From Ignavibacteria bacterium (GTDB taxonomy: Bacteria > Bacteroidota > Ignavibacteria > Ignavibacteriales > SURF-24): a stretch of DNA of 64,000 nt. How positions within the stretch are numbered: the stretch's first letter is position 1; each line of letters starts with the position of its first letter. The stretch is taken from NCBI GenBank assembly GCA_025612375.1, contig JAAXKN010000006.1, forward strand, positions 1 through 64,000, given 5' to 3'. This document shows positions 20,909-26,765 of the stretch, piece by piece. Below the pieces are notes generated by a model. It did not search any database, was not told the DNA's origin, and worked only from the letters and a program-made list of their open reading frames with translations. Position numbers and translations under genes: made by a program.

Positions 20909-22102
20909 ATGGCAAAATTCGACCTGGAAAAAGTTCAGGACATACTGAAAAAAATGAACTTTGATGCGTGGCTGTTTTATGACTTCAGAGGCTCCAACTC
21001 TCTGGCCCATGAAATACTTAATGTTTCTCCCGAAGCTCACCTGACCAGGAGATTCTTTTATCTTATCCCTAAGGATGGAACACCGGTTAAGATTGTAAAC
21101 GGAATTGAAGCTTTCCACCTTGATCACCTGCCGGGTAAAAAGCTCACCTATTCCAGCCATGCCTCCCTGGATAAGCATTTAAGAGATACACTTTCTGGGC
21201 TCAAAACCGTTGCCATGGAGTACTCTCCGATGAATGCTATTCCTTACGTATCAAAGGTTGATGCCGGTACAATAGAGTACCTGAGGACGTTTAACATCGA
21301 CATCAAAAGCTCGGGCGACCTGATCTCGATGTTCGGCGCACTCTGGAGCCCGGAGCAGTTCGAAGAGAACAAAACCGCAGCCCGCGCTCTTTATGAAATT
21401 GTAAGACAGGCATTTAATTTCATTAAGGAAAAAACTGCCACTAACTCGAAGGTAAATGAATTCGACGTCCAGCAGTTCATCATGAACGAGTTTAAGAAAA
21501 GAAATATGGTTACCGATTCGGATGCCATTGTTGCAGTTAATGAAAACAGCGCAAACCCGCACTATGCCCCGGACTCAGGCGTGCATAAGGATATAAACAA
21601 GGGCGACTTTGTTTTAATAGACCTCTGGGCTAAGATGAATACCCCACAGGCTGTAATGGCTGACATTACATGGGTCGGCTATATGGGGCAGGAAGTACCT
21701 GAAAAATACACTAAAATCTTTAACATAGTTGCCCGCGCCCGCGACGCCGCCTTCAGTCTTGTTGAAGAGCGCTTTAAGGATGGCCGTGAGGTCCGCGGAT
21801 TTGAGGTGGATGACGCGGCCCGCAGCGTCATTAAAGAGGCCGGATACGGAGACTACTTTATACACAGGACAGGGCACTCAATTACAACTGAAACCCACGG
21901 GTCGGGCGCACATATGGATAACTTTGAAACCCGTGATGAAAGGCTTATTCTGCCTTCGACGTCGTTTTCAATTGAACCCGGGATTTACCTCACGGGAGAT
22001 TTCGGCGTTAGATGCGAAATTGACGTCTATATTTCCCCCTCGGGCGATGTTATAGCTACCGGAGAGGAAAGACAGAGAGAAATCGTCCCTATACTCAAAT
22101 AA
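20909..22102 (+). CDS. M24 family metallopeptidase (Xaa-Pro aminopeptidase-like)
   Basis: The 397-residue protein has a creatinase-type N-terminal domain (about residues 1-165) and a pita-bread catalytic domain. All five metal ligands of the family are visible in order: Asp in FVLIDLWAK, Asp in VMADITW, His in HRTGHSI, Glu in FSIEPGIYL and Glu in RCEIDVYI. The likely reaction is removal of an N-terminal residue ahead of proline, though related members have other substrates. No signal peptide is seen, so it acts in the cytosol. The ribosome binding site is GAGG, six nt before the ATG. Confidence 0.88.
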   Translation: MAKFDLEKVQDILKKMNFDAWLFYDFRGSNSLAHEILNVSPEAHLTRRFFYLIPKDGTPVKIVNGIEAFHLDHLPGKKLTYSSHASLDKHLRDTLSGLKTVAMEYSPMNAIPYVSKVDAGTIEYLRTFNIDIKSSGDLISMFGALWSPEQFEENKTAARALYEIVRQAFNFIKEKTATNSKVNEFDVQQFIMNEFKKRNMVTDSDAIVAVNENSANPHYAPDSGVHKDINKGDFVLIDLWAKMNTPQAVMADITWVGYMGQEVPEKYTKIFNIVARARDAAFSLVEERFKDGREVRGFEVDDAARSVIKEAGYGDYFIHRTGHSITTETHGSGAHMDNFETRDERLILPSTSFSIEPGIYLTGDFGVRCEIDVYISPSGDVIATGEERQREIVPILK

Positions 22103-22313: not shown

Positions 22314-25175
22314 TTGATGTTATCCGGGAAATATTTAGAACTCCATAAGCTCCTGCTCGAGAAGATTCCTGAAGACAGGATGTTTTCAGACGACCTTCGT
22401 ACACTTGCCTATGGAACAGACGCCAGTTTCTACAGACTTATTCCAAAGCTGGTCGTAAAAGTAGATACTGAAGAAGAAGTAATTTTAATATTAAAGCACT
22501 GCAGGCGCCTTGGCATATCTGTCACTTTCCGCGCCGCAGGCACAAGCCTTTCCGGGCAGTCCATCTCCGACAGCGTCCTGGTCGTGCTTGGCACTAAATG
22601 GAAACACTTCCATATAAATCACGACGCCTCAGAGATAAGGCTCCAGGTCGGAATCATTGGCGCTCACGCCAACGTATTCCTGGCTCCTTATAAAAAGAAA
22701 ATTGGGCCCGATCCGGCTTCCATTAATTCGGCCATGATCGGGGGCATTGCAGCAAACAATGCAAGCGGCATGTGCTGCGGCACTTCGCAGAACAGCTACA
22801 GGACACTGGCCGGAATGAAAATCATTTTCTATGACGGAAGCCTGCTGGATACCAACAACCCCGAAAGCAGAAAGAAGTTTGCCGAATCGCACACTGAAAT
22901 GATTTCCGCTGTCTGTGCGCTCTCAAAAAAGGTCAAGGAAAACGCGGCCCTTTCTGAACGCATAAGAAGCAAATTCAAGATGAAGAACACCACAGGCTAC
23001 AGCCTGAATGCCCTTACTGATTTTGACGACCCTATAGATATTATACAGCACCTCATGATAGGCTCCGAGGGAACACTAGGCTTTATCTCCGAAGTAAATT
23101 ACTATACCGTTCCCGAAATGAGCAATAAGGCCACTTCACTTATGCTTTTCCCCGATGCCGTTACGGCATGCAAGGCAGTCGAGATACTGAAGACTTCAAA
23201 GGTCGAAGCCGTGGAACTCATGGACAGGGCTTCGCTGCGCTCGGTTGAGGATAAAGAAGGTATGCCCCCTTATCTTAAATCACTTGGCGCTGAAGTTGCC
23301 TCACTGCTAGTTGAAACAAGAGCCGGCGACGCTGAGAGCCTTTCAGGGCAGATTGCTGAAATTAAAGAAGCCCTTAAGGACCTGCCCAAGGTTATGCCGC
23401 TTGAGTTTACCCAGGACGAAAAAGAGTTCAAAAAACTCTGGGACATAAGAAAAGGACTCTTCCCTTCTGTAGGCGCAATGAGGAAGATCGGAACTACGGT
23501 AATTATTGAGGACGTATGCTTCCCTATCAGCCGCCTTGCCGAGGCAACAGCCGACCTGCAGGAACTGTTCAAAAAACATGGGTATTACGACGCCATTATC
23601 TTCGGCCACGCACTGGAGGGCAACCTCCACTTTGTCTTTAAGCAGGGTTTTAATTCAGAGGCTGAAATCAACCGCTATAAAAACCTGATTGATGACGTCA
23701 CAAATATGGTGGTTAAGAAATATGACGGCGCTCTGAAGGCTGAACACGGCACCGGACGTAATATGGCACCCTTTGTGGAGCTCGAATGGGGACATGAAGC
23801 CTTTGGCCTTATGAAGGAAATTAAGAGCATCTTCGATCCGGATAACATCATAAATCCGGGCGTGATACTGAACAACGATGCTGAGGCCCATATAAAAAAC
23901 CTAAAGCCTCTTCCGGCAGCAAATTCCATAGTTGATAAATGCATTGAGTGCGGATTCTGCGAAATCAACTGCCCTTCAAGAGATCTTACAATTACACCCC
24001 GGCAGAGGATTGTTGTCTGGCGTGAAATTGCCCGCCTCAAGGAAACGGGCGAGGATCCGGCAAGGCGCGCAGCCCTTATTGACCAGTACGACTACGACGG
24101 CAACCAGACCTGCGCTACAGACGGGCTTTGCGCCACGAGCTGTCCGGTAAACATTAATACTGGCAACCTGGTAAAAGAGCTAAGAGCTGAAAATGCCTCC
24201 CCCACTGCACAGGGCATTGCCAGCGTGCTTTCATCCTCCATGAACCAGGTGACGGCAGGAATGAAACTGGGACTCAACGTCGTAAACGGCCTGCATACGG
24301 TTCTGGGTACTTCAATAATGCAGGGAGCCTCAGACGTTTTAAGGAAGGTCTCAGGAGGCAGAATACCAATGTGGAACCGTTATATGCCAAAAGGAGCCGA
24401 CAAAATAATTATCCCTCAAAGCTCAAACGGATCAGAACTTAAGGTCGTATACTTCCCGAGCTGTATTAACAGATCGATGGGCGTCTCCAAGGGAAGTGAA
24501 AATAAAGACTCACTTACCACCCGGACTGTCTCGCTTCTTAACAAGGCAGGCTACGAGGTAATTTATCCGAAGAATCTTACAAACCTTTGCTGCGGAATGG
24601 CATTTGCAAGCAAGGGCTTTAAAAAGCAGGGTGATAAAAAATCCAATGAGCTTCTGGAAGCATTACTTGAAGCCTCAGATAACGGAAAATTCCCTATACT
24701 TTTCGATATGAGCCCATGCCTTTACAGGATGAAGGAATATTTAAGCCAGCACCAGGGACAAGAGCCCTTAAAGATATACGAGCCGGTAGAATTTATTGAC
24801 GAATTCCTCACAGACAAGCTCAGCTTCACAAAGACAAAGGAAAAAATTGCCATTCACTCCACGTGCAGCTCAACGAAGATGGGGCTCAATGGAAAGCTTA
24901 AGAAAGTAGCCGAAATGTGTTCTGAAGAAGTTGTTGTCCCCCACGGCGTCGGATGCTGCGGATGGGCCGGCGACCGAGGCTTTACCTATCCTGAACTTAA
25001 CGCCTCTGCCCTGAGAAACCTCAAGGGCGGCCTGCCTGATGACTGCCGCCACGGATACTCAACAAGCAGGACCTGCGAAATCGGATTATCCGTGCATAGC
25101 GGAATTAGTTATGAATCTATCATATACCTTGTGGATAATTGCACTGAACCTATAGAAAAAAAGCATAACTCTTAA
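22314..25175 (+). CDS. FAD-binding and iron-sulphur oxidoreductase (D-lactate dehydrogenase/glycolate oxidase type)
   Basis: The 953 residues join in one chain what GlcD and GlcF do in two. An FAD-binding PCMH domain comes first (FRAAGTSLSGQS near residue 71, IGGIAANNASGMCCG near 142), then an FAD-oxidase C domain ending with AEHGTGRNMAPFVELEWG near 475. Two 4Fe-4S ligand sets follow (CIECGFCEINCP and CATDGLCATSCP, residues 541-610), and finally two cysteine-rich CCG-type domains (NLCCGMAF and GVGCCGWAGDRG). This is the layout of the Dld-II type D-lactate dehydrogenase, which passes electrons from a 2-hydroxy acid to the respiratory chain. D-lactate is the best guess; glycolate or D-2-hydroxyglutarate is possible. 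Confidence 0.88.
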   Translation: MMLSGKYLELHKLLLEKIPEDRMFSDDLRTLAYGTDASFYRLIPKLVVKVDTEEEVILILKHCRRLGISVTFRAAGTSLSGQSISDSVLVVLGTKWKHFHINHDASEIRLQVGIIGAHANVFLAPYKKKIGPDPASINSAMIGGIAANNASGMCCGTSQNSYRTLAGMKIIFYDGSLLDTNNPESRKKFAESHTEMISAVCALSKKVKENAALSERIRSKFKMKNTTGYSLNALTDFDDPIDIIQHLMIGSEGTLGFISEVNYYTVPEMSNKATSLMLFPDAVTACKAVEILKTSKVEAVELMDRASLRSVEDKEGMPPYLKSLGAEVASLLVETRAGDAESLSGQIAEIKEALKDLPKVMPLEFTQDEKEFKKLWDIRKGLFPSVGAMRKIGTTVIIEDVCFPISRLAEATADLQELFKKHGYYDAIIFGHALEGNLHFVFKQGFNSEAEINRYKNLIDDVTNMVVKKYDGALKAEHGTGRNMAPFVELEWGHEAFGLMKEIKSIFDPDNIINPGVILNNDAEAHIKNLKPLPAANSIVDKCIECGFCEINCPSRDLTITPRQRIVVWREIARLKETGEDPARRAALIDQYDYDGNQTCATDGLCATSCPVNINTGNLVKELRAENASPTAQGIASVLSSSMNQVTAGMKLGLNVVNGLHTVLGTSIMQGASDVLRKVSGGRIPMWNRYMPKGADKIIIPQSSNGSELKVVYFPSCINRSMGVSKGSENKDSLTTRTVSLLNKAGYEVIYPKNLTNLCCGMAFASKGFKKQGDKKSNELLEALLEASDNGKFPILFDMSPCLYRMKEYLSQHQGQEPLKIYEPVEFIDEFLTDKLSFTKTKEKIAIHSTCSSTKMGLNGKLKKVAEMCSEEVVVPHGVGCCGWAGDRGFTYPELNASALRNLKGGLPDDCRHGYSTSRTCEIGLSVHSGISYESIIYLVDNCTEPIEKKHNS

Positions 25176-25210: not shown

Positions 25211-25242
25211 AAAGCATAGCTTTTAAGCTATGCTTTTTTTTT
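25211..25242 (+). terminator. Second, tandem terminator hairpin
   Basis: A perfect 12-bp stem (AAAGCATAGCTT at 25211-25222 with its complement at 25225-25236) with a 2-nt loop runs into eight or more T. The stop codon of the opposite-strand B12 protein gene (25223-25225) lies in this loop. The arms share the AAAGCAT core with the hairpin just upstream. Confidence 0.85.
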
Positions 25243-25885
25243 CGGCTTTCGATCTTTCCTTAATAAATTTCTCAAGCTCCTTCAAATTCGGGATGTACTT
25301 TACATTGTAGTACTGCTCTAAAAAGTCGGGGCTGTTTTCCTTGAAAGCCTGTCCCCCCACAATAATCTCAAGCTGCGGGAATTCCTTCTTAACGCTTTCA
25401 ATCATGTCTGTGAGCCTGACAACATTCAGGTAAAGGCTCATGGACAAAGCCAGAAGGTCCGGCTGTTTTTCATTTATAAGCTTAAAGAGTTCAGTTTCCT
25501 TGGTATTGGCTCCAAGGCAGTAAGCTTCCCAGCCCTGCAATTCAAAAACATCAGCAACCATTTTGGCGCCCACCTGATGAAATTCCTTGGGAACGCAAGC
25601 TACAATAACTTTTTTTCCTATCTTTTCCGGTGCCGAGACTACCGGGTAAGTATAACTCATCAGGCATTCGGTAATTGTTGTGGCCATGTGTTCGGTGGCC
25701 CCGCAGATTTTATTGTTCTCCCAGAGCTTCCCGACGCGTTCGAGTGAACGCTGAAAAAGCCTCTCATATAATTCTTTTGGATCAACCTTATTTTCAATAA
25801 GGTGAGCTACTATGGCCGAACACTTTGGTTTATCTCCCTCCAGCAGGCATGAAAGATACTCTAAAAAAATTACTTCGCTAATCAT
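25223..25885 (-). CDS. Stand-alone B12-binding protein with CarH-type Wx9EH motif
   Basis: The 220-residue protein has a helical cap (residues 1-85) and a B12-binding Rossmann domain (about 90-215). The cap carries Trp55, then nine residues, then Glu65-His66: this is the Wx9EH motif that in CarH-type proteins surrounds the upper axial face of adenosylcobalamin and makes them light sensors. The B12 domain carries ExHxxG at residues 101-106, with His103 as the probable lower ligand, and later LSMSLYLN and VGGQAF. No MerR-type DNA-binding domain is present; the N-terminus starts directly with the cap. It may sense light or B12 and act through a partner. Other cobalamin-dependent roles remain possible. 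Confidence 0.85.
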   Translation of the reverse strand: MISEVIFLEYLSCLLEGDKPKCSAIVAHLIENKVDPKELYERLFQRSLERVGKLWENNKICGATEHMATTITECLMSYTYPVVSAPEKIGKKVIVACVPKEFHQVGAKMVADVFELQGWEAYCLGANTKETELFKLINEKQPDLLALSMSLYLNVVRLTDMIESVKKEFPQLEIIVGGQAFKENSPDFLEQYYNVKYIPNLKELEKFIKERSKAEKKSIA

Positions 25886-26207: not shown

Positions 26208-26224
26208 CTAGATTTTCTCTTTGC
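26191..26224. repeat. 17-bp tandem duplication across the ppa stop codon
   Basis: CTAGATTTTCTCTTTGC occurs twice back to back (26191-26207 and 26208-26224). The right copy encodes the last residues and stop of ppa; the left copy lies just after it and is out of frame. It looks like a recent small duplication. Confidence 0.9.
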
Positions 26225-26765
26225 TGTGCAGTTCCCCGTATGTCCTGTTGTAAAGACTGATGCTTTCGTTAATTACCCTGTAGGCCTCCTCGCGCCCGAA
26301 GAAGTGCTCCACGACCACGTTCTTATGCTCATTTTTCTTGTAATCTTCAAAGAAGCGCCTGAGCTCAACAACTGTGTGCGGGGGAAGTTCCGAGATGTCA
26401 TTAATATAGTTAACAGACATGTCGTTTTTTGCCACAGCAATAATTTTATCATCCCTCTCGTTTTCGTCCACCATGTGCATTACGCCTATTACCTTCGCGT
26501 CAACTATACACATAGGGTCGACCTCAATTGAACAGATGACCAGTATGTCCAGCGGATCCCTGTCATCGCAATAGGTCTGCGGAATAAAACCGTAGTTGGC
26601 CGGGTAATGAACAGATGAGAACAAAACGCGGTCGAGCCTTAAGAGTCCGCTTTCCTTGTCAAGCTCATACTTGCCTTTACTTCCCATGGGAATTTCAATT
26701 ATGCTTCTTACAAACTGAGGTGCGTGCTCCCCCAGATTTACATCGTGCCATGGATTGACATTCAT
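26208..26765 (-). CDS. ppa: Inorganic pyrophosphatase (family I)
   Basis: The enzyme hydrolyses pyrophosphate to phosphate and pulls biosynthetic reactions forward. The 185 residues contain the family I elements: [13 protein letters not shown] near residue 28, [12 protein letters not shown] near 54, and the metal-binding signature DDRDPLDIL at about 67-75, with a further Asp in EIDVDAKVIG-like [13 protein letters not shown]. The length is normal for a bacterial enzyme. The gene stands alone, facing away from the TonB operon. Confidence 0.95.

Follow-up and report, generated by a model that had tools for sequence, protein, structure and literature searches.

The gene on the minus strand at positions 25223–25885 of the window (the whole 64,000-nucleotide stretch of Ignavibacteria bacterium DNA that was analyzed) encodes a free-standing B12-binding protein whose nearest characterized kin, on the basis of sequence, fold, and tree, are the photocobilins and not CarH. 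Our preferred reading, which we put forward tentatively, is that this protein may have arisen from a photocobilin and may work as a free-standing switch based on adenosylcobalamin (AdoCbl) that signals to a separate partner. Of wider interest is a widespread family in which the DNA-binding and bilin-binding parts have both been lost, yet the adenosyl pocket known from B12 photoreceptors does not vary.

Gene and domain architecture

The initial annotation gave this open reading frame no strand and described its product as a cap plus B12 domain that begins directly with the cap, and the frame and its layout prove to be real. The features of the locus are as follows.

25223–25885, minus strand: free-standing B12-binding protein of 220 amino acids (stop codon at 25223–25225)
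25664–25858, minus strand: four-helix cap domain PF02607, residues 10–74 (Pfam and AlphaFold helices)
25313–25612, minus strand: B12-binding Rossmann domain PF02310, residues 92–191 (Pfam and AlphaFold model)
25721–25732, minus strand: GxxW, Gly52 to Trp55 (Gly and Trp invariant in 46/46)
25688–25693, minus strand: Glu65-His66 of Wx9EH (invariant in 46/46)
25568–25588, minus strand: K100-E101-F102-H103-x-x-G106, lower-ligand motif (K100, E101, H103, and G106 invariant in 46/46)
25499–25513, minus strand: GANTK (G125–K129), site of the GxxxP signature (from the alignment)
25211–25236, no strand assigned: hairpin with T-runs between convergent genes, a possible shared terminator (pattern scan only)
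26208–26765, minus strand: inorganic pyrophosphatase gene, upstream across a 322-nt gap (synteny kept in relatives G001–G003)
22314–25175, plus strand: FAD-linked oxidase/Fe-S protein gene, convergent (synteny kept in G001–G003)

Both domains score above the Pfam cut-offs, at 44.9 bits for PF02607 (B12-binding_2) and 60.7 bits for PF02310 (B12-binding), and the AlphaFold model is confident (pLDDT 91.8), with cap helices at residues 4–15, 19–31, 36–56, and 62–83. The open frame runs to 225 codons, five of them upstream of the start, and for this reason no hidden DNA-binding domain is fused to the protein; an N-terminal MerR DNA-binding domain is likewise absent from it. Strong purifying selection acts on the gene, with dN/dS of about 0.05–0.08 relative to the sister genome. 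The scan that returned the hairpin found three such patterns against 1.7 expected. An M24-type peptidase gene (identified by eye, 20909–22102) also lies close to the B12 gene, and members of its broad cluster recur beside the B12 gene in 20 related loci.

An invariant adenosyl pocket

The residues singled out by the initial annotation are present, namely W55-x9-E65-H66 in the cap and E101-F-H103-Q-V-G106 in the B12 domain, and in an alignment of 46 homologues sharing 36–92% identity, G52, W55, E65, H66, K100, E101, H103, and G106 show no variation (46/46). The relatives were fetched by a peptide pattern around His103 alone, from which the Trp and the Glu-His pair were absent, and all 47 relatives fetched in this way contain Wx9EH; judged from these sequences, conservation of the motif is far beyond chance. 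Three more B12 proteins were found in the genome, MetH and two corrinoid proteins of the methyltransferase type; these carry Phe at the Trp position and have no EH. In photocobilin and CarH, the Trp of GxxW stacks on the adenosyl ribose (PMC10979010, PMC11796333). His103 is the predicted cobalt ligand, and conservation of the pocket argues for AdoCbl as the ligand of the window protein, which very probably binds it.

How closely does this pocket follow the published signature for green-light response (SignatureFinder CBD), which comprises GxxW, EH, GxxH, and GxxxP (PMC11796333)? The window protein has GxxW and EH. At the third element Lys100 replaces Gly (KxxH) in 46 of 46 sequences, and at the fourth Lys129 replaces Pro in the window protein and the sister genome only, Pro being present in 43 of the 46 relatives. 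By sequence, then, the light signature is incomplete in the window protein. Since the hallmark KE[FY]H stands in place of GExH, the orphan branch is missed by the published signature, which would not list this family at all.

Photocobilins are the nearest characterized kin

Photocobilins are B12 and bilin photoreceptors (PMC10979010), and they head the phmmer search of solved structures (8j2w/8j2x, 1.5e-15; 8j2y, 2.2e-13), followed by 1y80 (a corrinoid protein), CtMerR, and, further down the list, CarH (8e-7). The best fold match to the model is the photocobilin SasPcob (Z 24.6, rmsd 2.2 over 208), below which come CtMerR (Z 22.4), MetH (21.1), the AppA SCHIC domain (20.0), CarH (19.4), and AerR (18.9). 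This ranking mixes types, and fold alone therefore cannot tell light-responsive from other proteins, though a photocobilin comes first. The window protein also has the photocobilin-type cap and Rossmann domain with W-x-EH and E/DxH. Clustering with methyltransferase-type corrinoid proteins, the outcome that the initial annotation had named as contrary to its reading, was not seen: the methyltransferase rows branch apart with support of 100/99, and forcing the clade together with them is modestly rejected (AU p = 0.024). The window protein groups with other free-standing proteins in a clade, supported at 90/99 (100/99 once one long branch is removed), that is nested among globin plus B12 proteins and has an Ilyobacter fusion as its sister (97/89); CarH and CtMerR form long branches whose position is unsure. 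By these sequence comparisons the window protein is placed as a member of a free-standing clade within the photocobilin lineage.

The CarH-type reading in the initial annotation thus stands for the adenosyl pocket and not for kinship. The combination that marks CarH, Wx9EH plus D/ExHxxG, occurs in the window protein and in 46/46 of the alignment, and the predicted structure does match CarH, only less well than photocobilin. However, H132 and the R176–D201 pair of CarH are replaced, the window protein having E56, F102, and N127 there, and its matches to the NCBIfam CarH model and to several corrinoid models fall far below the cut-offs.

Distribution, neighbors, and candidate partners

By their record titles, the relatives of the window protein fall in Ignavibacteria and SAR324. 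Among 59 related genomes the free-standing form occurs in 31 (hand count) and the globin plus B12 form in nine; a small split protein gives clear matches in two, with two more hits marginal. The gene order in SAR324 (L047, L048) is B12 protein, kinase-receiver-Hpt protein, a helical protein of ~160 aa, RsbU-like protein, and kinase, and in two Ignavibacteria (L029, L043) the B12 protein is followed by the small protein seen in SAR324 and then by a kinase. In Ilyobacter the small protein is fused to the B12 domain with a GGDEF protein next, and this fusion was the sole hit of the small protein against plasmids (2e-11). For the basal members, the split operons with kinases and the Ilyobacter fusion support signaling via a separate protein, and they lend direct support to the suggestion in the initial annotation that the protein works through a separate partner. 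The small split protein was also considered as a globin, a designation that is unproven given the weak hhalign result against photoglobin (probability 7%) and the poor model (pLDDT 49 from two sequences).

The kinase and small-protein neighbors are gone from the window's branch. Neither the small partner protein nor the photoglobin domain has a match anywhere in the window genome, and no CarH-like fusion occurs there. The corresponding profiles A3 and A4, which match in two and nine related genomes, find nothing there, though a diverged globin could escape them. Because the attached output part is lost, the window protein would have to signal through a separate partner, and signaling in trans is the probable mode.

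Most related loci place the B12 gene among unrelated genes (PAP2, amylase, Mla, Ppa). Of 47 related loci, 25 (within L049–L091) have a PAP2_C membrane protein directly upstream, and in ~21 loci an alpha-amylase-like protein lies directly downstream on the same strand. As an obligate partner PAP2_C was rejected, since many genomes that lack the B12 gene have it too and only generic PAP2 hits occur in the window genome. A CobO adenosyltransferase lies closely upstream on the same strand in seven loci, as the immediate neighbor in five of them, and this linkage is confined to one clade. The neighborhood CobO, B12 protein, DtxR-like, FeoB-like, and exonuclease III-like is conserved in several Ignavibacterium-type genomes (L056, L064, L069, L074, L077, L084, and L014). 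The window genome itself has two adenosyltransferases, CobO and a PduO-type enzyme. Rfam models, the cobalamin riboswitch included, have no match in the window or in 13 related loci, and on this ground a riboswitch near the window B12 gene was rejected.

Is light the input?

A central question is whether the pocket still reads light. For the window organism the light signal suggested by the initial annotation is not supported so far: genome-wide there is no FAD_binding_7 photolyase, no third phytoene-synthase-like gene, no photoglobin, no CarH-like fusion, and no other CarH-type B12 domain. That the window protein responds to light in its natural setting is plausible, if somewhat less likely than not.

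In relatives bearing a globin (11 genomes, the nine fused ones and, counted with them, two of the split form) there is a good circumstantial case for light. A third phytoene-synthase-like copy is present in 10/11 of them versus 9/48 others and a photolyase in 6/11 versus 2/48, although the genomes are interrelated and p-values for such gene associations are therefore optimistic. Only a third SQS_PSY copy was counted as carotenoid-like; the adjacent pair in nearly every genome is presumably a hopanoid/squalene pair. Orphan-only genomes show no association with photolyase (1/22 versus 1/26) and a weak one with the third SQS_PSY copy (7/22 versus 2/26, p = 0.06). Several relatives are, by record titles from which habitat is inferred, mine, groundwater, borehole, and cave isolates or from lake water at 100 m.

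Wild-type photocobilins are without H132 and yet light-responsive (PMC11796333). For this reason the missing H132 does not by itself exclude a light response, and loss of the CarH residues makes the analogy with CarH weaker but leaves the light reading as it was. None of the 59 related genomes contains a canonical heme oxygenase (PF01126), though nine carry photoglobin plus B12 proteins, so that no source of the biliverdin chromophore is identified there.

The neighborhoods of these photoglobin plus B12 genes are distinctive in their own right. In all eight ignavibacterial cases examined (L034–L041) the gene directly precedes, on the same strand, a gene for a protein of ~396 aa, which in L035 is a HisKA-HATPase kinase by Pfam and in the other seven looks alike by eye. 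Ignavibacterial photoglobin plus B12 genes in L041 (1–5256), L039 (2846–5388), and L042 (3839–6381) stand in runs with a histidine kinase and KaiB, and the L041 run extends to KaiC (KaiB 2.5e-30, KaiC 2.3e-115); a B12/bilin light input beside clock-like genes is possible at these three loci. None of the papers listed in a literature search on this subject names photocobilins. Protoporphyrinogen oxidase- and ferrochelatase-like genes were also seen by eye near the photoglobin plus B12 gene in L039 (6615–9000) and L042 (221–2612).

Proposed mechanism and alternative readings

In the mechanism we favor, AdoCbl would be bound base-off/His-on between the cap and the Rossmann domain of a head-to-tail dimer whose interface would hold the adenosyl group, as in photocobilin and CarH. 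Should this group be lost, for which the simplest route is breakage of the Co–C bond by green light, cap and dimer would rearrange and so alter the grip on a separate signaling partner. Ancestrally that role probably fell to the histidine kinase and the small helical protein found beside the B12 gene in SAR324 and two Ignavibacteria, and in the window's lineage the partner may now be unlinked or replaced.

An alternative hypothesis, a serious one if rather doubtful, is that the protein senses AdoCbl status (or oxygen/redox) independently of light, the apo or hydroxocobalamin and the AdoCbl forms differing in oligomer and partner binding. The pocket is intact in lineages that, going by their record titles, seem to come from dark habitats, orphan-only genomes are not enriched in photolyase, CobO is linked in one clade, and CarH tetramerizes only with AdoCbl and has a light response that depends on oxygen too (PMC10442372). 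However, the family is nested in a photoreceptor lineage whose tested members are light-responsive (PMC10979010), E65, H66, and W55 surround the photolabile adenosyl group, and the window and 13 related loci lack the cobalamin riboswitch or any other Rfam match.

A carrier or store of AdoCbl, passing the cofactor to enzymes or taking it from an adenosyltransferase, would suit a free-standing cap plus Rossmann domain and the loci in several Ignavibacteria where CobO is the next gene upstream, but it is improbable: that linkage belongs to one clade while most loci lie amid unrelated genes, the basal members adjoin kinases, and a carrier does not need an invariant Wx9EH. Least probable by far is a corrinoid protein that carries methyl groups within a methyltransferase system, a reading rejected by tree and motif even though the cap plus Rossmann fold is common to MetH and MtmC/MttC-type proteins (Z 15–21) and weak NCBIfam corrinoid-family matches exist, because the window protein has no DxHDIGKN and no methyltransferase gene beside it, unlike the genome's own two corrinoid proteins, both of which have DxHDIGKN and one of which lies beside a uroporphyrinogen-decarboxylase-like methyltransferase gene.

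Returning to an AdoCbl switch of photocobilin descent, we speculate, as an unlikely extension, that the orphan branch may be a diffusible switch acting wholly in trans that in dark-living Ignavibacteria has turned from light to AdoCbl/oxygen sensing while keeping the photoreceptor pocket. Nature thus provides, in this family, a test case for what the pocket signifies, sensing of light or of AdoCbl, and a partner that can be tested, a histidine kinase, is indicated by the split operons of the basal members.

Comparison with known systems

The photocobilins SasPcob and AbDPcob (PMC10979010) are the best match in sequence and fold, share the lineage, and have W-x9-EH and E/DxH. They differ in carrying a bilin-binding globin on the same chain, a domain absent from the 220-aa protein by Pfam and AlphaFold model and unmatched elsewhere in the genome, and the window protein has Lys for the Gly of GxxH and for the Pro of GxxxP. 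CarH/LitR proteins share Wx9EH, ExHxxG, and the cap plus Rossmann fold, whereas their MerR DNA-binding domain, H132, R176, and D201 have no equivalents here and the tree separates them deeply. CtMerR of Chloracidobacterium resembles the window protein in fold and pocket, with the bis-His ligand missing in both, but is fused to a MerR DNA-binding domain.

AerR/PpaA of Rhodobacter are, like the window protein, free-standing B12-binding cap plus Rossmann proteins, and they are photoreceptors and co-regulators that act on a separate protein (PMC6199135, PMC9144470). AerR, however, acts on CrtJ/PpsR in phototrophs, whereas phototrophy is not expected for the window organism, and the long AerR form uses His10, which lies in an N-terminal extension that the window protein does not have. 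Finally, whereas the window gene has no comparable neighbor and these genomes no PF01126 heme oxygenase, the basal relatives share the arrangement of the pre-2/BBAG-2 split B12 and globin clusters already described (PMC10151467), in which a free-standing B12 protein is encoded beside a separate helical or globin-like protein.
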